Source: an uncultured Lachnospiraceae bacterium (GTDB lineage Bacteria > Bacillota > Clostridia > Lachnospirales > Lachnospiraceae). From it: a stretch of DNA of 64,000 nt. The stretch is from positions 1-64,000 of the forward strand of contig CAMUYQ010000002.1 in assembly GCA_947165025.1 (NCBI GenBank). The letters run 5' to 3'. Position numbers and translations under genes: made by a program. Shown here piece by piece: positions 6,766 to 23,304 of the stretch. Position 1 is the stretch's first letter. Every line of letters starts with the position of its first letter. Below the pieces are notes generated by a model, which worked only from the letters and a program-made list of their open reading frames with translations, did not search any database and was not told the DNA's origin.

Positions 6766-7719
6766 ATGCTTGGTAAAAAACCGATCCCCGTATATGTTTT
6801 CACGGGATTTCTTGACAGCGGAAAAACGAGCTTTATCAGACAGACGATGGACGAAGACCAGTTCAAGGACGGTCTTACCACGCTTTTTATCGTGTGCGAA
6901 GAGGGCGAGGAATCCATTGATGTCATGAGACTTGGCGATAATAAGTTTGTTGTCAGGAAGGTAGAAGATGAGGACGATGTCAGCCTGGAGCTCCTCAAAG
7001 GATTTGATAAAGAGGTACGTCCTTCGCGAGTTGTCATCGAGTCAAACGGGATGTGGGACAGTGATGAACTGTTTGAGGCGTTCCCTGATAACTGGCAGAT
7101 CGCGGAGATCATCACTCCGATCGATTCGGGCACTTTTGAAATGTATCTGTCCAACATGAAGATGATGATGACAAACCAGTACCGTTATTCGGATCTTGTT
7201 GTGTTTAACAGATGTCTTCCCGAACACGACCGCGCCATGTTCAAGCGTATGGTGAGGGCAGTCAACCGCCGTGCCCAGGTGCTTTATGAGACGCCTGACG
7301 GCCAGGTTGAGGACAACGTTCCCGAGGAACTTCCCTATGATATGGATGCCGATATCATCGAGATAGGTGATGAGGATTTCGGGATCTTCTATATCGATAT
7401 ATTTGAGAATATAGCAAACTATGTCGATAAGAAGGTTCAGTTTAAAGCAAAAGCTACGCATCCGAAGGATCTTAAACATGAGAGGATGTTTGCAGTTGCA
7501 AGACCGGCGATGACATGCTGTGCGGAAGATATCGCGATGGTAGGATTTCCGTGCGAATACGAAAAGCAGGCTGAAATCAAGGAAGGCGCCTGGATAAAGA
7601 TCACGGCAAGGGTACGTGCGATCATGAATAAACAGATAAACGAGCCTACGCCGGTTATGGAGGCGACAAAGGTCGAGCTGACTGATGCGCCCGAGGATGA
7701 GATCGCTTATTTCATGTAG
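6766..7719 (+). CDS. COG0523 GTPase with a YcgQ/DUF1980-like C-terminal domain
   Basis: A 317-residue protein. The G domain has Walker A GFLDSGKTSFI near residues 13-23 and an acidic switch region; ESNGMWD replaces the usual EPSG. No CxCC motif appears at the standard place. From about residue 215 the sequence changes to a fold containing MTCCAEDIAMVGFPCEY, strongly like the C-terminal part of YcgQ/DUF1980 proteins, which are often encoded beside CobW-type GTPases. Here the two appear fused. It directly follows the His-rich GTPase, suggesting a two-protein metal-handling system. Confidence 0.78.
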   Translation: MLGKKPIPVYVFTGFLDSGKTSFIRQTMDEDQFKDGLTTLFIVCEEGEESIDVMRLGDNKFVVRKVEDEDDVSLELLKGFDKEVRPSRVVIESNGMWDSDELFEAFPDNWQIAEIITPIDSGTFEMYLSNMKMMMTNQYRYSDLVVFNRCLPEHDRAMFKRMVRAVNRRAQVLYETPDGQVEDNVPEELPYDMDADIIEIGDEDFGIFYIDIFENIANYVDKKVQFKAKATHPKDLKHERMFAVARPAMTCCAEDIAMVGFPCEYEKQAEIKEGAWIKITARVRAIMNKQINEPTPVMEATKVELTDAPEDEIAYFM

Positions 7720-7732
7720 TCTGGAGGTGTCT

Positions 7733-8644
7733 ATGAAAATCGCACTTTTGGGTGCTGGAGCAGTCGGCGGATATTTTATATACGGATATGAGAACGCAGC
7801 TGATCCCGATAAGGAATTCGTTGTCCTGGCCGAGGGAAACAGACGCGACAGACTGATATCGGAAGGCATCAGGATCAACGGTAAGGTGTATCACCCCTCG
7901 GTAAAATCACCTGCCGAGGCCGGAGTCCAGGATCTTGTGATAGTATGCGTCAAAGGAAATGCACTTGATGATGCGCTGAAGCTTCTGCCGCCGGTTACCG
8001 GTAAAAACACGGTTATCATATCGATGCTTAACGGCGCCGATTCCGAAGAGAAGATCGCAGAGGCGGTCGGCAGCGAGCACGTTCTTCATTCGATAATACT
8101 GATCGCGTCCAGGCGGACAAAGGATGAGATCATTATAGATATGAGCTATAACAGCACCGTATATTACGGTGCGGCGGATGTTCCGGATCCTGAAAGGATG
8201 TTAAAGACCGTGGAAGATGCGGTAGCGGGAACGGAGCTTCACTTTGTAAAAAGTAAGGATATCATGCTGGATATCTGGACCAAGTATGCCAAGAACATCT
8301 GTAACAATCTTCCGCAGGCGATAATTGGAGTTCCGGCGGCACTCTATACAAGAAGCGAACACGGACTGTTTCTTGCCAGAAAACTTTGGCAGGAAGTGAG
8401 AACCCTCGCAAAACTTCGAGGGATAGATCTTCCCGAAAAGGAAGGAATATACGAATGTGCAGATTCATCGCGCTATTCAACGCTCCAGGATATTGACGCA
8501 AAGCGCCCGACCGAGATCGACAGCCTGTGCGGATATCTTCTGAAAATGGCATCCGAAAACAACATAAGTGTTCCGTATATCGAATACACATATCATGCTA
8601 TCAAAGCCATTGAAGAAAAGAACGAAGGGCTGTTTGAGTGTTGA
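7733..8644 (+). CDS. panE: 2-dehydropantoate 2-reductase (ketopantoate reductase)
   Basis: A 303-residue NADPH-dependent enzyme that reduces ketopantoate to pantoate for coenzyme A synthesis. The Rossmann signature GAGAVGGYF is at residues 7-15. The C-terminal helical domain has the WTKYAKNICNNLPQAI stretch whose lysine and asparagine contribute to the family active site. The ATG at 7733 is favoured by GGAGG at 7723-7727; an in-frame start at 7685 would overlap the previous gene. Family members include ApbA-like paralogs, so substrate is likely but not certain. Confidence 0.87.
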   Translation: MKIALLGAGAVGGYFIYGYENAADPDKEFVVLAEGNRRDRLISEGIRINGKVYHPSVKSPAEAGVQDLVIVCVKGNALDDALKLLPPVTGKNTVIISMLNGADSEEKIAEAVGSEHVLHSIILIASRRTKDEIIIDMSYNSTVYYGAADVPDPERMLKTVEDAVAGTELHFVKSKDIMLDIWTKYAKNICNNLPQAIIGVPAALYTRSEHGLFLARKLWQEVRTLAKLRGIDLPEKEGIYECADSSRYSTLQDIDAKRPTEIDSLCGYLLKMASENNISVPYIEYTYHAIKAIEEKNEGLFEC

Positions 8645-8669
8645 CGTAGGGTGAACACTGTGATAGTAT
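8641..8669 (+). promoter_or_regulatory. Promoter of tRNA-Arg
   Basis: TTGACG at 8641-8646, a 17-base spacer and TAGTAT at 8664-8669, ending 42 bases before the tRNA. The -35 box overlaps the panE stop codon. Confidence 0.55.
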
Positions 8670-8710
8670 GATTTGGTCGCGTGGGAGATGATCTCTCCTG
8701 CCAACAATAA

Positions 8711-8784
8711 GTGTGTGTAGCTCAGCTGGATAGAGCGTCTGGCTACGGACCAGAAGGTCGAGGGTTCGAATCCTTTCACACACG
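8711..8784 (+). tRNA. tRNA-Arg (ACG)
   Basis: A full cloverleaf: acceptor GTGTGTG with CACACAC, D arm GCTC/GAGC, anticodon stem TCTGG/CCAGA with loop CTACGGA (anticodon ACG), T loop TTCGAAT, discriminator G. CCA is not encoded. The 3' half from 8765 is repeated at 18841, marking this gene as the integration site of the downstream island. Confidence 0.96.
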
Positions 8785-8795
8785 GAGCCTGAAAT
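8765..8795 (+). repeat. Island attachment site, left copy
   Basis: Thirty-one bases from the tRNA T loop through the discriminator and into the terminator are identical to 18841-18871. This is the classic footprint of site-specific integration at a tRNA 3' end. The intact tRNA at this end has its 3' part supplied by the incoming element. Confidence 0.9.
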
Positions 8796-8825
8796 GCCCT
8801 GTTTTAGGGCGTTTCAGGTTTTTTT
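8786..8825 (+). terminator. Rho-independent terminator after tRNA-Arg
   Basis: CCTGAAATGCCCT pairs with AGGGCGTTTCAGG and is followed by seven T residues. A related but diverged copy follows the right attachment repeat (18863-18903). Confidence 0.9.
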
Positions 8826-9197
8826 GCGCTCAAAAACTGCGTTTCATTTTTTTTGCTAAGCCCGTATTTTCAAGGGTTTCAGAGCATCTAAGATGGTATT
8901 TACTTAATGAATCACTCAAACGTCCAGTATGGCGATATTTCTATGATGATGAGGGGGAGTTTTGCGCAGAGATACAATCTGATAAGAATCTATTCAAAAA
9001 GGACCACCCCGAAGGGTAGCCCATATATGAAATCCGGCGGGAATAAGCCCACCGGGAAGGGCGGAAAGTTGCCGCCACGAGATAATGATACCACAGAGCG
9101 TTTACATGAGTAAGCGCTCTTTTAGCGTTATTCCACAAAATGGCGGAGTTTGTTGGTAATAATCGCTAAGAGTATAGCAATATCGTGAAATGATTAT
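8826..9197. other. Island left flank without a recognisable gene
   Basis: No integrase or other known gene is visible here. A GC-rich part at about 9003-9110 contains several short complementary runs (for example CCGGCGGG with CCCACCGGG, and GGGCGGAAAG near GCCGCC) and stands out from the AT-rich surroundings. It could be a structured RNA or a decayed coding piece; I do not recognise a known RNA family. Confidence 0.3.
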
Positions 9198-9237
9198 GAA
9201 TTCAATGATATGTTGACGAATTCAACGGAACGTTGCT
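9198..9237. repeat. Tandem 20-bp direct repeats upstream of the island genes
   Basis: Two adjacent 20-base units, both starting GAATTCAA and sharing an internal GTTG, match at about 14 of 20 positions. They sit about 90 bases before the first island gene and could be operators for the XRE-type protein encoded downstream. Confidence 0.45.
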
Positions 9238-9741: not shown

Positions 9742-11442
9742 ATGAACGATATAAACGAAATTACAACCGCCAAAGAATATGGAAACCGTCTTAAGAGGAT
9801 CAGGGGCATAATGGGGTTAAGCCAAAAGGAGCTTGGAGAAAAGATTGGCGTTGTTGGTGCAACTGTTGCCAAGTGGGAAAAAGAGGGCATAAGAAACATT
9901 GAAGATCTGCAACGTTTGTCAATTGCTCTCGAAAGAGATCTTCTACAGGATGAGATTGACGAAGAAGGATCTGTTGGTGAGATAGGTAAAATGATCCTTT
10001 GCTATCTGATTAAGCTGTCAGGGAAAACAGAAAGCTATAAACTAATGGCATATCTGTATGAGGATTACGGTTTGTCAAGGCAGCGAGCAATAAAAGAGTT
10101 GTCTAAGCTTCAGCGGATTGGCCTGTGTGAGCGGGAAAACTATACAGATTTATACGATACCGTTTGTGATATGACTTATATAACGGCTAAAGGGCTTATT
10201 TTAGCTCAAAATAACCGTTGGAAGGTAGAAGATGAGACCTTAACTTGGGATGATAGGAAAGATGATGGAGAATCATCAGTAATTACTTATGAACGAGTAT
10301 GTCATGGATATGATAGTTATCAGGAGTATCTGGATAATATTAATGTAAATGATGATGTTCTCAAACTCCGTCCGACAGATGGGTTCAGAATAAATATAAT
10401 AAACTATATTCTGGAACATTACGAGTATTCCAAGGAAAAATCCTGTTCATGCAGGCTATTTTATGGAGAAAATCTCTATGAAGATATTATGAATTTAATG
10501 GTCAGAAAGATAGACCGCGGATTGTTGGATGAGCTGGTTAAGGAGTTAATGCTAGAAAACGAGGCTATTGTAGCAAATAGTGGCGGGCGACACTTTGAGG
10601 AAGAGCTCGAAAAGTCATTTATAGGAAACGATTATAGTTTATATAGTTTTGTGGCGAGTTTGTCTGATGAAACTGGAGACAGCTATTTTTACGATATTGA
10701 TTATTTCAAAAATGGTTTATCAAGATTATATTACGATATTGATAGTCGTGAAACACTTCCATCTTTCTATAACTTGTATTATGAACATTGGAACAAATAT
10801 GTGATGGAAGAAGAAGGCTATGATCCTGATGATCCTGATGGATTACTCTCTGATTACCCGGATTATTTCGATAATCCATACAGATATATCGTAGAAAAAA
10901 AGGGGAAGGATTACAAGAAATGGTTTTCTGATGATGAAATAATTACATTCATAAAAGAAAACATATTACCACCCCAAACGCCCGAGGAGCAGGAAACCGT
11001 TGATAGGATTAAACGAATAATTGATTCGGATTCTACAATTCTCGATTATTTTGTAATGCCAGATTATATTTCTCCCAAGGTTATAAATGCGTTGTACGAG
11101 GCTTATGACTTACCTAAGATCACTGTTAAGGTTGATGGTGATGATGAAACTCATGAAATGTGGAAGCCACTATTTATGAGAAGTTTTAGTGGCCTTCAAA
11201 AGAGAAGTGAGAAATGCGCCTATTACGATGATAATCATAACATTGTATTTATCAATCTGTTTGCATTGGTTTCTGTATCAGAAATAAACAAAATGAATGA
11301 TAGTCAGCTTGTGGAATTGGAGCGCAAAAGAGTTGCTGATCTTATTGATGAATCTCCGAACAAAGACTATATTCAGACGTTGATTAACGAACATCCCTGT
11401 TGTGAAGTAAAACTATATGCTGACAATTCCACGCCTATTTAA
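9742..11442 (+). CDS. Large XRE-type HTH protein with an acidic C-terminal region of unknown function
   Basis: A 566-residue protein. Residues about 10-60 are a Cro/C1-type helix-turn-helix (LKRIRGIMGLSQKELGEK, then VVGATVAKWEKEG). A second winged-helix-like part (about 75-155: YLYEDYGLSRQRAIKELSKL, then ITAKGLILAQ) follows. The remaining 400 residues are acidic, rich in Tyr and Asp, and I recognise no family. It has GGGAGG upstream of its ATG. It may regulate the island genes or be the sensor of an accessory defence function. Base composition is AT-rich like the rest of the island. Confidence 0.65.
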   Translation: MNDINEITTAKEYGNRLKRIRGIMGLSQKELGEKIGVVGATVAKWEKEGIRNIEDLQRLSIALERDLLQDEIDEEGSVGEIGKMILCYLIKLSGKTESYKLMAYLYEDYGLSRQRAIKELSKLQRIGLCERENYTDLYDTVCDMTYITAKGLILAQNNRWKVEDETLTWDDRKDDGESSVITYERVCHGYDSYQEYLDNINVNDDVLKLRPTDGFRINIINYILEHYEYSKEKSCSCRLFYGENLYEDIMNLMVRKIDRGLLDELVKELMLENEAIVANSGGRHFEEELEKSFIGNDYSLYSFVASLSDETGDSYFYDIDYFKNGLSRLYYDIDSRETLPSFYNLYYEHWNKYVMEEEGYDPDDPDGLLSDYPDYFDNPYRYIVEKKGKDYKKWFSDDEIITFIKENILPPQTPEEQETVDRIKRIIDSDSTILDYFVMPDYISPKVINALYEAYDLPKITVKVDGDDETHEMWKPLFMRSFSGLQKRSEKCAYYDDNHNIVFINLFALVSVSEINKMNDSQLVELERKRVADLIDESPNKDYIQTLINEHPCCEVKLYADNSTPI

Positions 11443-11510
11443 ATGTAGAAATTTTTTGGAGGGAGATAGAATTAACCGGTTTAGCGATTCGTCCAAAGGA
11501 GATTATTACC

Positions 11511-11747
11511 ATGTCTGATAATAACGGAAATGATAATAAATATTGGGACGATATGTATTATTTCGAAAACTACGAGAAAGAAATGGATCCAAATTCCTGG
11601 TCGGGACGTCCCAGATCTAATGCGGGTGGGGGATTCTGGGTTTGGCTAATAATCTTTATCATTGCATGTAATATTTCATCATCACTGGGAAGTGCCATAC
11701 TTGTAATCGGAATAATACTTTTGATTATTTGTAAAATATGTAAATGA
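11511..11747 (+). CDS. Small single-pass or hairpin membrane protein
   Basis: A 78-residue protein. The polar first half (Asn, Asp, Tyr, Glu rich, ending GRPRSNAGGGFWVW) is followed by two closely spaced hydrophobic runs, LIIFIIACNISSSLGSAI and LVIGIILLIICKI. AAAGGAG stands 10 bases before the ATG. It follows the XRE-type gene by 68 bases and may share its transcript. I recognise no family. Confidence 0.55.
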   Translation: MSDNNGNDNKYWDDMYYFENYEKEMDPNSWSGRPRSNAGGGFWVWLIIFIIACNISSSLGSAILVIGIILLIICKICK

Positions 11748-11933
11748 AGAAGAACAAGATAAGTATTATTTGGGAAGTAATAAAGGAATTTGTCTCATAT
11801 GCGAGAAAAAGGAAGAAAAACTGATAGAATGAATCGATCAGCTGTAGATCGGAATATACCAAATCATCTAATCGAGGCATTAGCGGAGTGTGTCCACCTG
11901 GACAGAGAAAAAAGAAGAGTCGACAGAATGTTA
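11748..11933. other. Gap before the IS3 remnant, with a possible 45-codon frame
   Basis: A short frame at 11799-11936 would encode a charged peptide ending HLDREKRRVDRML. It has no clear ribosome site and its end coincides with the presumed IS left end, so it may be the tail of an interrupted gene. Nothing else is seen. Confidence 0.25.
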
Positions 11934-12201
11934 TGATACCCCTTAAGTAGACAGTAAAAATATACAAAGTCTCTTAAGGGGGTTTTTTATGCGTAGATAT
12001 TCTATTGAAACTAAAATTGCCGCTTGTAAAGATTACTATGAGAATGGCTTAGATTATAGAGCCATTTATGAAAAGTTTGGGATTGAAGCCAAAAGACCGG
12101 CATCTTCCATCTTATGTGAGTGGATAACGAAATACGGTCTATATGGAGAAGCTGCATTCGCCTCGATAAATACTCACCAAAGAGTATATTGTATATGGTA
12201 A
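11934..12201 (+). mobile_element. IS3-family insertion sequence remnant
   Basis: The left end reads TGATACCCCTTAAGTAGACA, like IS3/IS150-group termini. It is followed by a complementary CTTAAGGGGG and T run. The frame from ATG 11989 (70 residues) is the start of an OrfA helix-turn-helix protein: RRYSIETKIAACKDYYENGL, then an SILCEWITKYGLYGE element. It stops far short of a complete OrfA, and OrfB is absent. Right boundary not resolved. Confidence 0.7.
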
Positions 12202-12226
12202 AATTAAATCTAGCGATAATGCTTGA

Positions 12227-12291
12227 GGATAAATGGATTTGTTCTTGAGGCAATTCGTGAAAAAGTTGAGAGAAAATCGAACGGAGAATAG
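12227..12291 (+). pseudogene. Possible tail of a ribbon-helix-helix protein
   Basis: The frame ending at the TAG 12289-12291 reads NGFVLEAIREKVERKSNGE. This resembles the last helix of ribbon-helix-helix antitoxin or CopG-like proteins. No start or strand is left upstream, so it is at most a remnant beside the IS fragment and just before hsdR. Confidence 0.25.
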
Positions 12292-12293
12292 AA

Positions 12294-14627
12294 GTGGCTA
12301 TAATAAGTAAAAGTCAAATGTCTGAAGAGGACATTAAACTTAACTACATAACACCGGCAATACAGCCCGGATGGTCTGGCCGCATTACTATGGAGACCAA
12401 GATAACGGACGGCCGCATCAATCTTCGCGGCAATATGGCCGTTCGCAGTACACCTAAGTATGCTGATTACCTTCTATATCTTAATGATGGGAAGCCGATT
12501 GCTGTTGTAGAGGCAAAAGATAATAACCATTCCGTATCACACGGTCTTCAACAGGCTATGACTTATGCTCAGATGATGGATCTGCCGTTTGCATATTCAT
12601 CAAACGGTGATGCATTCTTCGAACATGACTTTCTGACTGGTCAGGAGCGTCAGATCAGTCTTGATGAGTTTCCGACACAGGACGAACTGATCGCAAGATA
12701 TTATGCAGAGATCAATAAAGGTCAGGGAGTCACAGATATTGAGAAAAAGATCGTTGATCAGCCGTATTACTCATCTCAAAGCACATATCCGCCACGATAC
12801 TATCAGCGAAATGCCATAAACCGTACTGTTGAGGCTATCGCCAAGGGTCAGGACAGGCTTCTTCTCGTTATGGCCACTGGTACTGGTAAAACATATACAG
12901 CCTTTCAGATTGTATACCGTCTGCTTAAATCAGGTCTGAAAAAACGCATATTATACCTTGCTGATAGGAATATCCTTGTTGATCAGAGCATACTTCAAGA
13001 CTTCGCACCGCTTGAGAAAACCACGTATAAGATTGATTTCTCTGATAAGGATTGTTTACGGAAGATCAGTTCTCATGAAGTTAATTTTGCCCTGTATCAT
13101 CAAATGATAGGCCAAAATGATGAGGAACACTTCAGACAGATACCTTCGGGATATTTTGATCTGATCATTGTCGATGAGTGTCATCGCGGATCTGCAAAGG
13201 AAGACAGCAACTGGCGCAAGGTGCTGGAATACTTCTCTGGTGCAACGCAGATTGGTATGACTGCCACTCCTAAAGAGAGTGAAAAGATCTCAAATATAGA
13301 TTATTTTGGTGAGCCTTTATATGTTTACAGCCTGAAGCAAGGTATTGAGGATGGTTTTCTGGCACCGTTTAAGGTTATCAATATCACAACTAACATCGGT
13401 GATGGATGGAGACCGTATAGCGGTCAGACGGATATCAATGGCAATGAGATCGAGGACCGTGTCTATAATAACCGGGACTATGATTACAATATTGTGATCC
13501 TTGACAGGATTAATGAAGTTGCTGCTGAAATTACAGAATATCTGAAGCAGACCGGCCGTATGCAGAAAACCATAGTCTTCTGCGCTAACGAGGATCATGC
13601 TGAACGCATGAGGATTGCTCTCACAAATCTTAACAGCGATATGTGTCAGCAGAACCCTGATTATGTAGTGCGCATCACCGGTTCTGATATATACGGCAAG
13701 AGCAAACTTGACTACTTTATATCCGTTTCGTCTGATTATCCTGTTATCGCAACGACTTCTGAACTGCTATCAACCGGTGCAGACTGTAAGATGACAAAAC
13801 TTATCGTGCTGGATAAGACAGTTGAGAGCATGACCACTTTCAAGCAGATCATCGGTCGCGGCACGCGTATCAGAGAGCGTGAAGGAAAAACACATTTTAC
13901 TGTTATGGACTTCAGGAATGTTACCAGACTGTTTACGGATCCAGATTGGGATGGTCCAATTGAACAACATGAAGGATTTCATCCCGGTGGAGATGGTCCT
14001 ACCCCAGTTACTCCTCCCGGTCCGACTGTCGATCCCCCTATCATTCCAAATGAAAAGGCTATCGTGGATGCAAGCGGCTGCAGGGTTAAGATCATTAATA
14101 AGACTGTATCTGTATATGACGCTAATGGCAGGCTGCTTCGTCAGGAAGATATCATAGATTATACAAAGAGCAATATTATGGGCGAATATGCCTCTCTTTC
14201 AGATTTCATCCGTAAATGGAAGGCTTCTGATAAGAAAGAGGCTATTGAAACGTTCTTCGCCGAAAGAGGCATCGACCTGAAAGCATTAAAAGAGGATCAG
14301 GGCATGTCTGATGTCGATGATTTCGACTTCATATGCTATGTGGCATACGGAAAGAAGCCTCTCACCCGCCAAGAACGGGCAAATAACGTTAAAAAACGTG
14401 ATTTCTTCTCAAAATACTCTGGAGATGCTCGGGCTGTACTTGAGATCCTGCTTGATAAGTATATGAACCAAGGTATCACGGAGGTTGAAGATATTAAGGT
14501 TCTGTCACTGTCTGACTTTGCTGAATATGGTAAGCCTGCCAAGATTGTGAAACTCTTTGGCGGCAAAGAGCAATATGAACAGGCCGTAAAGGAACTTGAA
14601 GACAGCATTTATGCGATGGAGGGTTGA
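12294..14627 (+). CDS. hsdR: Type I restriction enzyme, R (motor/nuclease) subunit
   Basis: A 777-residue EcoEI-type HsdR. The PD-(D/E)XK nuclease lies at about residues 55-80 (DYLLYL, then IAVVEAKDNN). The SF2 translocase follows: Walker A ATGTGKTYTAFQ near 194, DECHRGSAKED near 292, TATPKESE near 323, and motif VI QIIGRGTRIRER near 518. A Pro/Gly-rich linker near 565-585 leads to the EcoEI_R_C-like tail. The start is GTG 12294 behind ACGGAG. It cuts unmodified DNA when bound to HsdM2-HsdS. It heads the operon in the tRNA-Arg island. Confidence 0.95.
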   Translation: MAIISKSQMSEEDIKLNYITPAIQPGWSGRITMETKITDGRINLRGNMAVRSTPKYADYLLYLNDGKPIAVVEAKDNNHSVSHGLQQAMTYAQMMDLPFAYSSNGDAFFEHDFLTGQERQISLDEFPTQDELIARYYAEINKGQGVTDIEKKIVDQPYYSSQSTYPPRYYQRNAINRTVEAIAKGQDRLLLVMATGTGKTYTAFQIVYRLLKSGLKKRILYLADRNILVDQSILQDFAPLEKTTYKIDFSDKDCLRKISSHEVNFALYHQMIGQNDEEHFRQIPSGYFDLIIVDECHRGSAKEDSNWRKVLEYFSGATQIGMTATPKESEKISNIDYFGEPLYVYSLKQGIEDGFLAPFKVINITTNIGDGWRPYSGQTDINGNEIEDRVYNNRDYDYNIVILDRINEVAAEITEYLKQTGRMQKTIVFCANEDHAERMRIALTNLNSDMCQQNPDYVVRITGSDIYGKSKLDYFISVSSDYPVIATTSELLSTGADCKMTKLIVLDKTVESMTTFKQIIGRGTRIREREGKTHFTVMDFRNVTRLFTDPDWDGPIEQHEGFHPGGDGPTPVTPPGPTVDPPIIPNEKAIVDASGCRVKIINKTVSVYDANGRLLRQEDIIDYTKSNIMGEYASLSDFIRKWKASDKKEAIETFFAERGIDLKALKEDQGMSDVDDFDFICYVAYGKKPLTRQERANNVKKRDFFSKYSGDARAVLEILLDKYMNQGITEVEDIKVLSLSDFAEYGKPAKIVKLFGGKEQYEQAVKELEDSIYAMEG

Positions 14628-14629
14628 TT

Positions 14630-14785
14630 ATGCCTGCTAATAAGGATAAACAAAAGAATACATCCAAAAAGAATAAAGATCGTGATCAAAACAGTTCAAA
14701 AAGAAAGATGACTCCGAAAGAAAGAGCAAACTTTTCTGAACAGAACAGTGTGGAAATGTTTCCTATAGATACATTTAACGATTAA
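14630..14785 (+). CDS. 51-residue lysine-rich peptide in the hsd operon
   Basis: The ATG at 14630 lies 2 bases after the hsdR stop, behind GGAGGG inside the hsdR end, and the frame runs to TAA 14783-14785. The product starts MPANKDKQKNTSKKNKD and is very basic for its first 32 residues. It then becomes acidic and hydrophobic (NSVEMFPIDTF). One base separates it from the next gene. Translation is likely from position and ribosome site. No family is recognised. A nucleic-acid-binding or partner-binding peptide would fit. Confidence 0.6.
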   Translation: MPANKDKQKNTSKKNKDRDQNSSKRKMTPKERANFSEQNSVEMFPIDTFND

Positions 14786-14786
14786 G

Positions 14787-15650
14787 ATGCGTACTCTCTA
14801 TAAGGCTGCAAGTAGGATAATAATTTCATTTTTCAGCATATTATTACTATTCCCACATGATGTGTATGCAGATAATGGTAATGAAATTGTCCATATTACA
14901 GAAACGGGAGTCTGTTATCATGCCGAAGGTTGCTCACATTTGAGATACAGTGATTATCTAGTAACTCTTCATTATGCTGTTATTGAACATGGGTTTAACA
15001 CATGCGACGAATGCGTAGATAGGGTGCCTGTGTATGATGGACCCGAACCATTACATCCCAAAATGGATAAGAGAGATCACTATCCGGGAGATGATGGAAA
15101 TCGAGTTAAAGTCACATCAACCCCCACACCTTCTCCAACTCCGGCTCCTGAAGGCGAAGACAAAAACAGTGATCTAACGGCGAAAATTGCATTAGGTATA
15201 TTTGCAGCCTTCTTTGGTATACCTCTCTTATCTGTTATTACAGATGGAGTAAGAGATGCTAAAACCAGAATACATGAGAAGAAGATAAAACAGGAAGAAT
15301 ACATACGGGACCGCGAAAAATACTACAATCTTTATGGTAATAAACATTCATATGAACTCGTGGATATCCCGCAAGGTTCGTTCATACAGGGCGGGTATCC
15401 TTGTACGAATAACAAAAAGAAGGGCGAATACGGTGATTATACCGTTTATGTGGGAAAAAGGAGTATGAGTGTTCTGCATCTTAACCCCAATTGTGGTGGA
15501 TCAGATCTCATTCCTGTAAATTACTATACCGCAAGGAATTTAAGGCATTGTAAGCGTTGTGCAATGGGAAAGATCGATTTACCGCGGATTGATTGGTATA
15601 TGAAGTATCTTGAAATAGAAAAGATAAAGAATAAATACGATATTCCATAA
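14787..15650 (+). CDS. Membrane protein with two Cys/His modules, encoded between hsdR and hsdM
   Basis: A 287-residue protein. Residues 1-28 are a signal peptide ending near HDVYADN. Next comes a Cys/His module (VCYHAEGCSHLRYSDY near 42, CDEC near 75) and a TPTPSPTPAP linker near 112-124. A membrane segment at about 133-152 and a charged helix follow. A second module closes the protein (VLHLNPNCGG near 230, HCKRC near 252). Topology suggests one module outside and one inside the cell. Such H-x-C...CxxC modules may bind zinc. I do not know this architecture in type I systems; it could be an accessory sensor. Confidence 0.7.
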   Translation: MRTLYKAASRIIISFFSILLLFPHDVYADNGNEIVHITETGVCYHAEGCSHLRYSDYLVTLHYAVIEHGFNTCDECVDRVPVYDGPEPLHPKMDKRDHYPGDDGNRVKVTSTPTPSPTPAPEGEDKNSDLTAKIALGIFAAFFGIPLLSVITDGVRDAKTRIHEKKIKQEEYIRDREKYYNLYGNKHSYELVDIPQGSFIQGGYPCTNNKKKGEYGDYTVYVGKRSMSVLHLNPNCGGSDLIPVNYYTARNLRHCKRCAMGKIDLPRIDWYMKYLEIEKIKNKYDIP

Positions 15651-15671
15651 AGAAAATAGGAGAATACAGAA

Positions 15672-17153
15672 ATGGCAATGCAATCAGGCTTTATTAAGAG
15701 AATAAGGGATATCATGCGTATGGATGCCGGTATAAATGGTGATGCGCAGAGAATTGAACAGATGGTGTGGATGCTGTTCCTAAAGGTTTATGATGCCAAG
15801 GAAGATGACTGGGAACTCAATGAGAGTAACTATACATCCATCATTCCTGAGAACTGTAGATGGCGTAACTGGGCGCAGGCTGATGATAATGGTCATGCCA
15901 TGACCGGTGATAAACTGCTTGATTTTGTCAATAATACGTTGTTTCCGACACTTAAAGGTCTTACAGTCACGCCTGATACGCCTGTAAAGAAGGCTATCGT
16001 CAAATCAACCTTCGAAGATGCCAACAACTATATGAAAGAAGGCGTTTACCTTCGTCAGGTCATAGATATCATAGATGAGATAGAGTTCGATGATGTGAAG
16101 GAAAGTCATGATTTCGGATTTGTATATGAAGAGATCCTCCGAGACCTGCAAAGTGCAGGATCATCTGGTGAATTTTATACTCCCAGAGCCGTGACAGACT
16201 TCATGGCACTTATGATACAGCCCAAGATCGGTGAGAAAATGGCTGATTTCGCCTGCGGTACCGGTGGTTTCATAACATCATGGCTCGGACAGCTGCAGAA
16301 GCAGGTAAAGGATACGGAAGGGCAGCGACAACTTGATGATAGTATTTATGGTATTGAGAAGAAGCCGTTCCCGTATCTGTTATGTGTTACCAATATGCTT
16401 CTTCATGACATAGAAGTTCCGAATATCTATCACCAGAACTCGCTCAGTTACAATCTTCTTGATTATACGGATAATGATAAGTTTGATGTTATCCTGATGA
16501 ATCCGCCTTATGGTGGCCATGAAGATAAGTCTATTCAGGGATATTTCCCTGATGATCTTGCATCATCAGAGACAGCGGATCTGTTCATGTCGGTAATTAT
16601 GTATCGTCTGAAAAAGAACGGCCGGGCGGCTGTTGTCGTTCCCGACGGGTTCCTGTTTGGCCTTGATAATGCAAAAGTCTCTATAAAGACAAAACTTCTT
16701 ACAGAGTTTAACCTTCATACAATTGTAAGGTTGCCGGGTTCCGTGTTCAGTCCATATACATCTATATCTACTAATCTTCTGTTCTTTGATAATACCCAGC
16801 CCACAAAGGAAACTTGGTATTACAGGGTAGATATGCCCTCAGACCGTAAGCATTTTTCCAAGACGAAGCCGATGGAGTTGAAGCATTTTGATGATTGTAT
16901 TGCTTGGTGGAATGATCGTAAAGAGATAGAACTTGCTGATGGACCGAAGGCAAAGAAGTATACTGCAGAATATCTCCTGAAAGATCAGGGCTGTAATATC
17001 GATCTTTGCGGATATCCGCATGAGGAAGAAGAAGTGCTGGATCCGCTTGATACCATCAGAAACTATCAGGAAAAGAGAACTACTCTCAATGCTGAAATAG
17101 ATAAGGTTCTTGCTGAACTTGAAGCATTATTACCGGGAGGTGTTGAAGTATGA
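15672..17153 (+). CDS. hsdM: Type I DNA methyltransferase, M subunit
   Basis: A 493-residue N6-adenine methyltransferase. The N-terminal helical HsdM_N region spans about 1-140. The SAM motif ADFACGTGGFITSW is near residue 190 and the catalytic NPPY motif (ILMNPPYGG) near 276. Two HsdM with one HsdS methylate the host site, and HsdR joins for restriction. The gene follows the membrane protein by 21 bases, with a GGAG ribosome site, and overlaps hsdS by an ATGA. The sequence is complete and appears functional. Confidence 0.96.
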   Translation: MAMQSGFIKRIRDIMRMDAGINGDAQRIEQMVWMLFLKVYDAKEDDWELNESNYTSIIPENCRWRNWAQADDNGHAMTGDKLLDFVNNTLFPTLKGLTVTPDTPVKKAIVKSTFEDANNYMKEGVYLRQVIDIIDEIEFDDVKESHDFGFVYEEILRDLQSAGSSGEFYTPRAVTDFMALMIQPKIGEKMADFACGTGGFITSWLGQLQKQVKDTEGQRQLDDSIYGIEKKPFPYLLCVTNMLLHDIEVPNIYHQNSLSYNLLDYTDNDKFDVILMNPPYGGHEDKSIQGYFPDDLASSETADLFMSVIMYRLKKNGRAAVVVPDGFLFGLDNAKVSIKTKLLTEFNLHTIVRLPGSVFSPYTSISTNLLFFDNTQPTKETWYYRVDMPSDRKHFSKTKPMELKHFDDCIAWWNDRKEIELADGPKAKKYTAEYLLKDQGCNIDLCGYPHEEEEVLDPLDTIRNYQEKRTTLNAEIDKVLAELEALLPGGVEV

Positions 17154-18652
17154 CACCTGAACAGTTAAAGGCAAGTATTCTTCAATATGCAATTCAGGGC
17201 AAATTGGTAGAACAGAGACCGGAAGAAGGTACTGCGGAAGAATTGTATGAGCAGATACAGGCCGAGAAGCAGAAACTGATCAGTGAAGGAAAAATAAAGA
17301 AGGAAAAGCCTCTTGCGGTGATTACTGACGATGAGATCCCTTTTGACATACCTACAACGTGGAAGTGGATTAGGGTCGGCGAGATAGTTCGGATAATAAG
17401 TGGCTTATCGTATGACAAAAAAGATGTATCAAAAGAAGGAGTAAGGGTTTTACGAGGTGGTAATATTCAGTCTACTTTAGTCAAGATCGAGGCTGATGAT
17501 GTTTTTTTACCGATGTCTTATTTTGATGAGGACAAACAAGTTAGGGCTGGAGATATTCTTTATGTTGCATCAACAGGCAGTAAATCTGTTATTGGTAAAC
17601 CGGGGTTTGTTAATACGGATTACCCTAATACTGTAATTGGGGCGTTTTTAAGAATATGTAGACCTATAGATTTAAAGTATACTGAATATCTACGAATAAT
17701 TTTTTCATCAGAATATTATAGAAAGCATATTAGAGATTTGGCCCAAGGAACTAATATCAATAATGTCAAAGAAAGTTATGTGACAGAACTTGTTATTCCT
17801 TTACCGCCACTCGAAGAACAGTATCGAATTTTTAATAGCATCAACAATATCCTTCCGTTTGTTGACCGCTATGCTTCTGCCTATGAAAAATTGGAACAGT
17901 TAAACGCCAAGTTCCCGGAAGATATGAAGAAGTCAATCCTTCAATATGCTATTCAGGGCAAATTGGTAGAACAGCGTCCTGAAGAAGGTACGGCAGAAGA
18001 ACTGTATCAGCAGATACAGGATGAGAAGCAGAAACTGATTAAAGAAGGAAAGATAAAGAAAGAGAAGCCTCTTGCTGAGATCGCAGAGGATGAGATTCCT
18101 TTTGATATACCTGATAGTTGGAAATGGGTAAGGTTTAATGATTTTGGAGTGTATAAAAAAGGGCCGTTTGGCAGTGCATTAACAAAAAGTATGTTTGTGC
18201 CTAAGTCCGAAACGACTGTTAAGGTATACGAACAGAAGAATGCGATACAAAAAGACGCTTCTTTGGGCGATTATTATATTACGCGGGAATACTTTGAAGA
18301 AAAGATGAAGGGCTTTGAAGTAATGCCGGGAGATGTGATTGTTAGTTGTGCTGGAACAATTGGTGAAACTTTTATTCTGCCAGAAAAGATTGAACAAGGA
18401 ATTATAAATCAGGCATTAATGAGGATGTCGCTTATGCCATCAGTTTATAAACCATATTTCCTACTCTTTTTCGATGTGGTATTAAAAAGGAATGCAAAAG
18501 AAGGAAGTAAAGGATCAGCAATAAAGAACATCCCACCTTTTGAAGTGTTGAAGAATTATTTGGTACCACTTCCGCCACTTGAAGAGCAGCATCGTATCGT
18601 TGCTAAGATAGAAGAACTATTACCATATTGCGATCAGTTAATCAAAGAATGA
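17150..18652 (+). CDS. hsdS: Type I restriction-modification specificity subunit
   Basis: A 500-residue protein with two target-recognition domains (about 75-230 and 325-475). Each is preceded by nearly identical conserved regions starting ILQYAIQGKLVEQRPEEGTA. The spacer helices end in PLPPLEEQYRIF and PLPPLEEQHRIVAKIEELLP. Each TRD reads half of a bipartite DNA target, which cannot be deduced here. The duplicated conserved regions are 195 bp apiece in DNA (17174-17368 and 17933-18127), which may permit TRD exchange by recombination. The ATGA overlap with hsdM couples translation. Confidence 0.95.
   Translation: MTPEQLKASILQYAIQGKLVEQRPEEGTAEELYEQIQAEKQKLISEGKIKKEKPLAVITDDEIPFDIPTTWKWIRVGEIVRIISGLSYDKKDVSKEGVRVLRGGNIQSTLVKIEADDVFLPMSYFDEDKQVRAGDILYVASTGSKSVIGKPGFVNTDYPNTVIGAFLRICRPIDLKYTEYLRIIFSSEYYRKHIRDLAQGTNINNVKESYVTELVIPLPPLEEQYRIFNSINNILPFVDRYASAYEKLEQLNAKFPEDMKKSILQYAIQGKLVEQRPEEGTAEELYQQIQDEKQKLIKEGKIKKEKPLAEIAEDEIPFDIPDSWKWVRFNDFGVYKKGPFGSALTKSMFVPKSETTVKVYEQKNAIQKDASLGDYYITREYFEEKMKGFEVMPGDVIVSCAGTIGETFILPEKIEQGIINQALMRMSLMPSVYKPYFLLFFDVVLKRNAKEGSKGSAIKNIPPFEVLKNYLVPLPPLEEQHRIVAKIEELLPYCDQLIKE
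17174..17368 (+). repeat. hsdS conserved-region repeat 1
   Basis: This 195-bp in-frame repeat encodes the proximal conserved region of HsdS, from SILQYAIQ to the WKW before TRD1. It pairs with 17933-18127 in the same orientation. Confidence 0.85.
17933..18127 (+). repeat. hsdS conserved-region repeat 2
   Basis: This second 195-bp copy encodes the central conserved region of HsdS and is the same length as repeat 1, with scattered substitutions. Direct repeats of this kind are the usual substrate for domain shuffling in hsdS genes. Confidence 0.85.
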
Positions 18653-18840: not shown

Positions 18841-18871
18841 TTCGAATCCTTTCACACACGGAGCCTGAAAT
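18841..18871 (+). repeat. Island attachment site, right copy
   Basis: This is an exact 31-bp copy of 8765-8795 (tRNA-Arg 3' end and terminator start), without the tRNA 5' half. It is probably the displaced original 3' end of the tRNA locus. Confidence 0.9.
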
Positions 18872-18903
18872 ACTCTGTTTTAGGGCGTTTCGGGCTTTTT
18901 TGT
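18862..18903 (+). terminator. Original tRNA-Arg terminator displaced by the island
   Basis: AGCCTGAAA pairs with TTTCGGGCT (one G-T pair), followed by a T run. It is homologous to the terminator after the intact tRNA at 8786-8825. Confidence 0.7.
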
Positions 18904-19118: not shown

Positions 19119-19895
19119 ATGATATTTATCAGTTATTCACACAGAGACTCAGACCGCGTACATCCTCTTATCAATCGTCTGATAAGTGAAGGATATGAGG
19201 TGTGGTATGACGAGGGAATAGACCCGGGAACGGAGTGGGATGAGAACATTGCGATGCATCTTAAGCAGTGTTCGGGGATCATTGCATTTATTTCCGAAAA
19301 CTACGTTGAGTCGGAGAACTGCCGGGATGAGCTGAACTATGCCAGAGATCTGGGAAAAGAGCGCCTTCTCGTTTATCTCGAGGGCGTTGAACTTCCGGCC
19401 GGTATGGCGATGAGACTTAACCGGATCCAGGCGATCCATAAATATAAATATAAAAGCAATGATGCGTTTTACACGGAGTTAACAAAAGCTCCGATGTTAA
19501 AAAAGACGGAAGTTTCGTATGAAACACGGGATGACAGCGCTGAAAAAGAGTTGTTTCCGGTCACGAAGAGAGAGTTTCTCAAGAAGCCCGAACACAGGAC
19601 ATTGGGCACCGTTACACTGATCTTTGTGGTCGCATCATTGATCTTTGCGCCATTAATGTTCTATTTTGGAGATTTCCTTTTGTTTCCTGTGATCATCATT
19701 CTGGTTGGTCTCGGATTCTGGAAGCTGGATTACCGTTTTATAATTCCGGCTGCTGTTCTTTCTCTACTGTACGGCTGTCTTTTTATGCCGAGCTATTTTA
19801 TTATGGTCATATTTCTGGCTGTTCTCATCTACACCCTTTTCAAGGTCGACAGATCATACAAACAGTATCTTTCTTCCGGAAAAACATCTGACTGA
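19119..19895 (+). CDS. TIR-domain protein with C-terminal membrane segments
   Basis: A 258-residue protein. Residues 1-130 are a TIR domain: IFISYSHRDSDRVHPLI, the GYEVWYDEGIDPG loop, IIAFISENYVES, and CRDELNYA carrying the expected catalytic glutamate. Bacterial TIR domains often cleave NAD+ and serve in anti-phage systems. Four hydrophobic segments (about 165-245) would anchor it in the membrane, an uncommon arrangement. It starts 248 bases after the island repeat and may be transcribed with the CPBP protease 20 bases downstream. Whether it acts in defence or signalling is unknown. Confidence 0.83.
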   Translation: MIFISYSHRDSDRVHPLINRLISEGYEVWYDEGIDPGTEWDENIAMHLKQCSGIIAFISENYVESENCRDELNYARDLGKERLLVYLEGVELPAGMAMRLNRIQAIHKYKYKSNDAFYTELTKAPMLKKTEVSYETRDDSAEKELFPVTKREFLKKPEHRTLGTVTLIFVVASLIFAPLMFYFGDFLLFPVIIILVGLGFWKLDYRFIIPAAVLSLLYGCLFMPSYFIMVIFLAVLIYTLFKVDRSYKQYLSSGKTSD

Positions 19896-20864: not shown

Positions 20865-20881
20865 CCTTGGAGACCTCGCAT

Positions 20882-21928
20882 ATGTCAGAACTGAAAGATG
20901 TCATAACTTCATACAACAACCTATCATTCGGTGATCGTATTGTGTTTTATACCACCATCTCAAATGATATAGCGATCTCAGATGACACGCAATCTTTTTT
21001 GATAGAGACGCGCTTAGATGGGGAAGGATCCTGTATTTACTGCGAAGGAATGCATGTTGTAAAAAACGGAAAGAGGAAAGATGGTGTACAGCGGTTCCTG
21101 TGTCGGGACTGCCACAGGTCTTTTATCGCCAGTACTGATTCCATCACCTCCCGCACAAGAAAGTCCATTTCTGTTTGGGCGACATACTTAAAGTGTATGC
21201 TGGATCAAAAAACGCTGAAACAGTCTTCTGCGGAATGTGATATTTCTATATCCACCGCCTTTACCTGGCGGCATAAGATACTGGATACCTTAAGCGAATT
21301 GACAGAGAAAGCCTATCTGACAGGTGTTGTTGAAGCAGATGAAACGTTTTTCAACGTGTCATTTAAGGGTAACCATAATAGAAGCCGTGATTTTTCCATG
21401 CCACGCAAGGCACATAAGCGCGGGAACGATGTTCATGCCAACGGATTGTCGTCAGAGAAAGTCTGTGTTCCCTGCGCAGTCAATGATGCCGGCATTTCCT
21501 ATGCAAAAACCGGAAAGCTGGGAAAAATCAGTTCGGATTGCATCAAAGAGATTTTCGAAAAAAAGATCGCCCCGCATGCGGTTCTGTGTACAGACAAAGA
21601 ACGTGCCTATCTGAAATTGGCAGAACTAAATGAACTGAATCTGATACAGATGGATACTGACTGCCGTACGATCTCAAAAGATGGAATAAACTACGGGATC
21701 CAGCGGATCAACGCCTATCATAGCCGTCTGAAACTATTCATCTGCAGATTTCACGGGGTATCGACAAAGTACCTTGGCAATTATATCGTATGGAATGAAC
21801 TTTTATCAGGGAACCACAGAAACAAAGAGGCTTTCTTTGGTCAGTTATTAGGTCAGCTGCTCTGTGCCAGGATCACAAGATATGGGCAGGATATCCCGCG
21901 CCGACCATCCCTGCCTGTCGCTGCATGA
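20882..21928 (+). mobile_element. IS1595-like (ISXO2 group) DDE transposase
   Basis: A 348-residue transposase from ATG 20882, behind GGAG. It has a zinc ribbon (CIYCEGMHVV near 51, CRDCHRSF near 75), then the ISXO2-like catalytic core: VVEADETFF near 152, LCTDKERAYLK near 238, and a late INAYHSRLKLFICRF. The core resembles DDE/DDN transposases that use short inverted repeats. The end overlaps the TnpB frame (ATGA at 21925-21928). I could not identify inverted repeats or a target duplication, so the element's ends are unknown. Confidence 0.85.
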
Positions 21929-21972
21929 AAGCAATGCGCGGTAAATCATGCAGGAAGGGAGGGCTGGATACC

Positions 21973-23304
21973 ATGATACTGACAGAAAACCATAGGATAA
22001 AACGAAACAAACATAAGGAACTATTTAAAAAGATAGATGCGTACTGCTACAGCGCAAAGAACCTGTCAAACTCCGTGCAGTACCTGATCTGCCAATGCTA
22101 CCGGGTACATCAGAAACTGAAAAATGGCGAGATCCCGGATCAATGGGAGCAGGAATTGGTCGATAACACGAATCATGCGATCACTGTTTACAATGACGGG
22201 AGGGAGGAAAAGAAAAAACTAAAACGCGTTGACGCAGATAACGGTTTTGTCGCAGATGCATATTTCCTCAGCTGGCACATGAAAACATGGGACGTTTATA
22301 AGGCAATGCCCTATGCAACCTGCAGCCAGATCTGTATCCAGGAAAAGTGCAGGCAGTGGAAGTCTTTTTATCAGGCAAAAAAGGAGTATCTTAAGGATCC
22401 TGATAAGTTTCTGGGCGTTCCGAGAAAACCGGGATACCTGGATCCGATGAAAGGTCGCGACAGCCTTGTGATCACAAGCCAGAACTTCTCCATCGATGAG
22501 GATGACCGGATCACTATGCCGGGATTTTTAAAAGAGATCAAGCTAAAGGCCAGACACAGGCCCATAAGACAGATCCGCATCAAGACTGATAAGAGCAGCA
22601 TCCGCATCATGCTCATGTATGAACAGGAAACGGAAAGCATCGGATCAGATGGGAATATCATGGGGATCGACCTTGGTGTGGATAACCTGGTCACGGCAAG
22701 CCTGTCATCAGGCGACACTCCGTTCATTATTAACGGCCGCCCCCTGAAATCCATCAACAGATACTACAATAAGCGAAAAGGCCTCCTGCAGGTGATAGCA
22801 AAAAGAAGTAACCGCCTGGATATCACAAACAGGATGGAGCGGCTGACAGAAAAAAGGAACAACAAGGTAAAGGATTATCTCCATAAAGCAAGCCGCAAGA
22901 TCATCGAACTTGCAAAAACAAGCAATGTAAGTCATATCTGCATCGGCAATAACAGGGGATGGAAGCAGAAAGTGGAACTGGGAAAACGAACAAACCAGAC
23001 CTTTGTATCCATCCCGTACAGGATGCTGATCGATATGATACGCTATAAGGCAGAACTTATCGGCATCAAAGTAAGCGTCGTGAAAGAAAGTTATACGAGC
23101 GGGACCAGTTATCTTGATGGCGAAATCCCTGAAAAGGGTTTTTATGATGCTACGCGACGGGTAAAAAGAGGGATGTTCAAAAGCAACAAGGGAACATTGA
23201 TCAATGCCGATGTAAATGCTGCCTATCAGATCATAAAGGCCGGAGGATACAAAAATCTTCCGATCAAAGAAAAAGAAAAAGTCATAAGACTCAATGTAGC
23301 CTGA
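21973..23304 (+). CDS. tnpB: TnpB-family RNA-guided nuclease (IS605 OrfB-like)
   Basis: A 443-residue protein from ATG 21973, behind GGGAGGG; an in-frame ATG at 21925 would overlap the transposase. RuvC-I GIDLGVDNLV is near residue 232 and RuvC-III NADVNAAYQII near 411. The usual RuvC-II glutamate position reads IGNNRGWKQ, and no CxxC zinc pairs occur; instead KESYTS near 372 supplies a glutamate, as in TnpB groups with a rearranged site. TnpB proteins cut DNA guided by an RNA from the element's right end. It follows a DDE transposase rather than a Y1 TnpA. Confidence 0.85.
   Translation: MILTENHRIKRNKHKELFKKIDAYCYSAKNLSNSVQYLICQCYRVHQKLKNGEIPDQWEQELVDNTNHAITVYNDGREEKKKLKRVDADNGFVADAYFLSWHMKTWDVYKAMPYATCSQICIQEKCRQWKSFYQAKKEYLKDPDKFLGVPRKPGYLDPMKGRDSLVITSQNFSIDEDDRITMPGFLKEIKLKARHRPIRQIRIKTDKSSIRIMLMYEQETESIGSDGNIMGIDLGVDNLVTASLSSGDTPFIINGRPLKSINRYYNKRKGLLQVIAKRSNRLDITNRMERLTEKRNNKVKDYLHKASRKIIELAKTSNVSHICIGNNRGWKQKVELGKRTNQTFVSIPYRMLIDMIRYKAELIGIKVSVVKESYTSGTSYLDGEIPEKGFYDATRRVKRGMFKSNKGTLINADVNAAYQIIKAGGYKNLPIKEKEKVIRLNVA

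Follow-up and report, generated by a model that had tools for sequence, protein, structure and literature searches.

Type I restriction-modification (RM) operons are known to harbor embedded genes that function independently. Published reports describe TgvAB, a GmrSD-like pair (PMC11411939), DarTG2 (PMC12255303), and prrC (PMC3874165, PMC12707154) at such positions. RloF, cited in PMC11411939, lies between hsdR and hsdS, and DarTG2 between hsdS and hsdR, at a site that has been suggested as a possible recombination hotspot and home for defence systems (PMC12255303). In the open-licence literature searched, we found no paper describing a membrane protein gene like the one reported here in a type I operon.

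A Membrane Protein Gene within a Type I RM Operon

The window, that is, the whole stretch of 64,000 nucleotides analyzed here, belongs to an uncultured Lachnospiraceae bacterium. It contains an RM operon with two extra genes between hsdR and hsdM: a short basic ORF and a gene for a 287-aa protein that we named X (P0001). The initial annotation had described this arrangement, and its coordinates, gene order, and gaps proved exact. The gaps hsdR/51-aa ORF, 51-aa ORF/X, and X/hsdM are of 2, 1, and 21 bases, respectively, and all the genes are on the + strand. The genes of the operon and the segments of X are as follows.

12294..14627, + strand: hsdR, EcoAI/FtnUII family type I restriction subunit (NF046051, 1069.9 bits; Pfam ResIII and EcoEI_R_C)
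14630..14785, + strand: 51-aa basic ORF, with GGAGG upstream
14787..15650, + strand: X, single-pass membrane protein with two Cys/His modules
14787..14870, + strand: X residues 1–28, signal peptide, predicted cleavage between A and DNG (hydropathy, family conservation)
14919..15014, + strand: X residues 45–76, module 1, predicted extracytoplasmic, Ada-like, ligands H-C-C-C
15186..15242, + strand: X residues 134–152, membrane helix (hydropathy)
15477..15560, + strand: X residues 231–258, module 2, predicted cytoplasmic, ligands H-C-C-C
15672..17153, + strand: hsdM (Pfam N6_Mtase, HsdM_N)
17150..18652, + strand: hsdS (Pfam Methylase_S, two stretches)

The HsdR score is well over the 550-bit cut-off of the EcoAI/FtnUII equivalog NF046051 and genes for HsdM and HsdS are adjacent, which assigns the system to the EcoAI/FtnUII family of type I RM systems. 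A simple consensus scan of positions 14300–15672 revealed no promoter- or terminator-like site on the + strand, and X and hsdRMS probably form one transcript. The hsdS gene contains a 198-nt internal repeat (17177–17374 and 17936–18133, 83% identical), of the kind expected for the conserved regions of a specificity subunit.

The build of X given by the initial annotation, with a signal peptide, a membrane segment, and two Cys/His modules, is borne out by hydropathy, by the residue patterns, and by the invariance of the ligands. At the N-terminus, a hydrophobic segment is followed by the predicted cleavage site A/DNG, which is present with a V or A at position −3 in all five members of the X family. 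The pattern H-x3/4-C...C-x2-C occurs twice, at residues 45–76 and 231–258. Among 20,000 shuffled versions of X, none contained two such patterns and 85 contained at least one. All five full-length sequences share the eight Cys/His ligands without exception, and the modules probably bind zinc. The cytoplasmic part is conserved as well, with an invariant C-terminal Y-x-I-P in the same five sequences. The net charge is −2 over the 15 residues before the membrane helix and +2 after it. According to the positive-inside rule, the larger positive charge after the helix indicates an N-out, C-in orientation; the best predicted topology of X thus places module 1 outside and module 2 inside.

Neither Pfam and NCBIfam, at E values up to 1, nor PADLOC, at E values up to 0.1, returned a match for X, and no toxin-like or nuclease domain was found in it with these three collections. 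Five sequence matches to the PDB, with E values of 1 to 3.9, were taken as chance.

Homologs of X and Their Genomic Contexts

We searched for homologs of X in five overlapping sets comprising 299 genomes of the family, 392 of the order, 79 of a different genus, 37 of the genus to which the window belongs, and 363 genomes of the family, with thresholds of 1e-3, 1e-6, 1e-20, 1e-3, and 1e-15, respectively. About 730 distinct genomes, according to their numbering from G000 to G729, were examined before the last set of 363. An initial genome scan with X alone returned nothing, and a two-row query returned only the record of G116, Lachnospiraceae bacterium AC2028. In total, four full-length homologs were identified besides the X of the window, in genomes G116, G556, G633, and G646. 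They are 38–44% identical, and all four keep the eight ligands and the succession of signal peptide, module, helix, and module. Phage and plasmid records gave no match to X. Viral contigs contained no full-length relative; one of them, L073, encodes a protein with the two modules only. The match in L018 was taken as chance, and G707, G715, and other matches limited to a module were not counted as X.

Relatives of module 1 alone are more common than full-length X; they occur within different proteins, most of which are exported. The module forms, for instance, the tail of metallo-beta-lactamase-fold and SH3 proteins, and one membrane protein combines it with an IrrE-like peptidase domain.

In G646, the context is that of the window: X (L064, 9251–10162, minus strand) is located between hsdR (10140–12500) and hsdM (7750–9231), the latter followed by hsdS. 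The three other homologs have different surroundings. No match to HsdR, HsdM, or HsdS was obtained at E 0.001 in the 19.9 kb around X in G116, G556, and G633. The initial annotation had proposed the neighborhood of the homologs as a check on a link with restriction; the placement recurs in G646, where the same hsdR-hsdM junction is occupied, and these three of the five members are in other contexts. In each of the three, X lies less than 9 kb from genes for a secreted nuclease with a PF13930 domain and a channel with an Ion_trans domain (Pfam, three of three for both). In G116 (L019), genes for the secreted nuclease, the ion channel, a 311-aa module protein, and X are consecutive on one strand, and this nuclease is devoid of the module. 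In G633 (L065), X follows a metallo-beta-lactamase-fold gene, with an ion channel and a nuclease carrying a C-terminal module within 4 kb. In G556 (L059), X is 6–8 kb from an SH3 protein with the module, a nuclease with the module, and an ion channel. G646 also encodes a PF13930 nuclease with an Ada-like module, on a different contig from X.

The association of a PF13930 nuclease, an ion channel of the voltage-gated type, and Cys/His-module proteins is itself a recurring neighborhood (L019:7314–10777, L059:9169–19055, L065:9259–14136). Near two copies of X, a Schlafen-group-3 helicase gene adjoins a small MazG-like gene (L019:3392–5585, L065:5600–7578); the G633 helicase carries a GIY-YIG front.

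The hsdR-hsdM Junction as a Putative Variable Slot

Searches with HsdR at E 1e-100 or 1e-150, weaker matches being left out, provided 26 hsdR loci including that of the window. Two could not be scored: G060, with a shortened hsdR and no HsdM match in 13 kb, and G700, at a contig end. G676 was counted as filled though cut by a contig end, and four loci with one stop inside the hsdR match (G576, G327, G643, and G596) were scored. Among the 24 scorable junctions, hsdR and hsdM are adjacent in 17, two contain X, and five contain other genes. The filled junctions are the following.

Window: 51-aa ORF and X
G646: X
G686: 229-aa protein (L074:8640–9329), no Pfam or PADLOC match
G676: gene with a T5orf172-like start, 19.6 bits for a cut-off of 20; the contig ends
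G568 and G076: PDDEXK_5-like, below the cut-off
G314: complete GmrSD (L091:1778–4333; GmrSD_N 1.7e-36, GmrSD_C 4.3e-23)

The five other occupants therefore comprise one complete GmrSD, three weakly nuclease-like genes, and one without a domain match. The GmrSD-type type IV restriction gene of G314 has an extra DUF4268 end.

The junction of G280 is empty although its HsdR is 84% identical to that of the window. A single clade (support 100/100) unites the HsdR of the window with its four closest relatives; within it, the slot has four kinds of content: X, nothing, the 229-aa gene, and the T5orf172-like gene. Judging from these comparisons, the hsdR-hsdM junction of this EcoAI-type HsdR family is a variable cargo slot. 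In view of the 17 empty junctions and the five with other genes, X was rejected as a constant restriction subunit; the earlier proposal that X is a part or a tether of the restriction enzyme is not supported. X corresponds in three respects to an embedded gene: it lies between hsd genes on the same strand, a relative of the RM system lacks it (G280), and it exists without a nearby RM system.

Between the window and G646, identity is 43% for X, 83% for HsdR, and 88% for HsdM. This difference would reflect either two entries of X into the junction or a much more rapid evolution or exchange of X than of the genes around it. For one capture versus two, the tree of the five X members gave a support of 59/47 and an AU p value of 0.172.

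The 51-aa ORF, which contains nine lysines and three arginines, has a Shine-Dalgarno-like GGAGG preceding its ATG. It has no match in Pfam, NCBIfam, or PADLOC and none in the other loci compared, and was found in the window alone. The junction of G646 holds no counterpart, which rules out a conserved partner of X. This ORF, whose product is putative, is possibly just a translational-coupling leader for X.

A tRNA-Arg Site Flanking the Operon

Two direct repeats of 62 nt, 94% identical, bracket a region of about 10 kb containing the whole hsd operon.

8765..8826, + strand: left end repeat, att-like, consisting of the 3' end of tRNA-Arg (8711–8784, ARAGORN) and a terminator-like stretch
18841..18902, + strand: right end repeat of the island (direct repeat)

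Such repeats, together with the differing genes that come after the tRNA in relatives, are the usual look of a tRNA-borne island, so the RM operon and X were probably acquired as one. No integrase was seen in the ORF list of the island, nor by Pfam on three of its other ORFs. Five relatives of the genus, followed over up to 7 kb, retain the gene that precedes the tRNA (7685–8644), after which come different genes. The tRNA-Arg is visible in four of them; in the fifth, the stretch reads N. G707 (L111) has two additional copies of the tRNA end after the tRNA itself, and the site thus seems to be used repeatedly.

Just beyond the right end of the island, positions 19119–19895 encode a TIR domain and, by eye, hydrophobic, membrane-like segments. 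Farther downstream (20867–23304), an IS1595-type transposase ORF overlaps by 4 bases a 459-aa TnpB-like ORF (OrfB_IS605, Cas12f1-like_TNB).

Similarity of Module 1 to the N-Terminal Domain of Ada

By sequence and profile comparison, module 1 of X is an Ada-like module in which a histidine replaces the methyl-accepting cysteine. In Ada, the cysteine serving as first ligand is the methyl acceptor; the first ligand is a histidine in all 15 rows of the module 1 profile. When this profile was compared with the PDB, the best four of the five matches were Ada N-terminal structures (E 0.009–0.011), the match being limited to the CxxC half (profile positions 30–47). A single nuclease module aligns with Ada over most of its length (E 0.024–0.063): the H-Y-P-T-C of the nuclease lies over C-R-P-S-C of Ada, and its FH over FC.

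The Ada domain family PF02805, with a cut-off of 23 bits, recognized the nuclease modules in the genome search, with 29 bits in G646, 25.5 in G556, and 25.1 in G633. In scans of the whole nucleases, G646 was over the cut-off (25.4 bits) and G556 and G633 were just under it (21.8 and 21.3 bits). X itself was not matched by PF02805 at E values up to 1; its modules were not picked up at E 0.1 in the five X-bearing genomes, and the window's genome had no PF02805 match at E 0.1.

Fold models were weak overall, with a mean pLDDT of 53.5 for X and 62.7 for the canonical two-module protein of the viral contig L073, in whose three-row model the modules mostly reach pLDDT 65 to 86. Foldseek searches gave no match reaching E 0.001 with either model. 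With the module pair of L073, the top three of seven matches were Ada (probability 0.87–0.99, E 0.09–0.3), and the weak model of X had Ada as the top two of six (E 2.1 and 6.9). Modules 1 and 2 of X are weakly related to each other (hhalign E 0.025, probability 2%), and module 2 had no match in the PDB.

Possible Roles of X

We propose that X is an embedded accessory cargo of the hsdR-hsdM junction that would act on its own at the envelope, a putative function to which we give a probability of about 0.55 on the basis of sequence comparisons. X would be co-transcribed with hsdRMS and yet act independently of it. Module 1 would be a structural zinc module binding a ligand at the surface; its likeness to Ada and the recurrent proximity to nucleases make nucleic acid the most likely candidate. 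The cytoplasmic part would serve as a relay or an anchor. Since its spot appears to be a variable cargo site, a passenger accessory, perhaps one of defence, is a more probable role for X than that of a component of the restriction enzyme. X may sense entering DNA, or stress, at the envelope, as the initial annotation suggested.

A functional link between X and restriction is possible because the same slot is used twice, and the junction shared by the two genomes could reflect a real partnership with HsdR and HsdM. X would then be a working partner of the type I enzyme, either holding HsdR or HsdM at the membrane by means of its cytoplasmic half, with the result that incoming DNA would be cut at the envelope, or gating restriction on a surface signal. 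The common orientation, the gaps of 1–21 bases free of + strand promoter- or terminator-like sites, and the conserved cytoplasmic part with its invariant C-terminus agree with such a role, and the occurrence of exactly the same junction in the window and in G646 gives it real weight. We nevertheless hold it unlikely: most junctions are empty, including that of G280 with its closely similar HsdR, or contain other genes; three of the five X members are without an hsd match nearby; and the divergence of X greatly exceeds that of HsdR and HsdM. The surroundings of these three members, close to a secreted nuclease and an ion channel, together with the module 1 relatives forming the tails of various exported proteins, would fit an ordinary envelope protein of the nuclease/ion-channel neighborhood, involved in scavenging nutrients or DNA, that came into the junction by chance and has no role in defence. 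This too seems improbable. Two of five X copies in one junction exceed what random landing would produce if they are separate events, by a rough estimate assuming uniform insertion and independence, and the other occupants of the junction are nuclease-like, one strongly and three weakly.

It is rather doubtful that X founds a small group of membrane receptors that would retain or activate a nuclease at the point of DNA entry. In these, the outer Ada-like module would bind incoming DNA and the inner module would contact a nuclease of the cell, namely the type I enzyme in two lineages and another nuclease system in the remaining ones. If it did, it would represent an envelope-level component tied to restriction. 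Very improbable, in our view, is a guardian comparable to PrrC, held inactive by the enzyme and, once restriction is blocked by a phage, freed to harm the membrane or bring about arrest. The position inside the operon recalls prrC (PMC3874165, PMC12707154), but Pfam, NCBIfam, and PADLOC revealed no toxin-like or nuclease domain in X, and its homologs without nearby hsd genes would have nothing to hold them in check. Sensing or binding of DNA at the surface by X, if true, would link DNA entry to restriction. More generally, the occupants of the hsdR-hsdM junction in this EcoAI-type RM family are candidate defence genes.

Comparison with Known Systems

Module 1 shares with the N-terminal domain of Ada (PF02805) the close CxxC and the ligand spacing, and Ada tops both its profile and its fold matches. 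It differs by the histidine as first ligand and by its predicted extracytoplasmic location, X being below detection by PF02805. In G556, G633, and G646, secreted DNA/RNA non-specific endonucleases (PF13930) end in an Ada-like module of the same kind, and PF13930 nucleases are encoded near X in G116, G556, and G633. Unlike them, X is devoid of a nuclease domain; it has in addition a membrane helix and a predicted cytoplasmic module.

With TgvAB/GmrSD, DarTG2, PrrC, and RloF, X shares the position of its gene inside an hsd cluster, the existence of RM systems without the gene and of the gene without the RM system, and the variability of the site. These proteins are cytoplasmic nucleases, toxins, or modification sensors, whereas X is predicted to be exported and to span the membrane once; it has two Cys/His modules and is devoid of known enzyme domains. 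The embedding of genes in type I operons is already known; as far as the literature searched extends, an exported membrane protein with Ada-like modules is a new kind of occupant.
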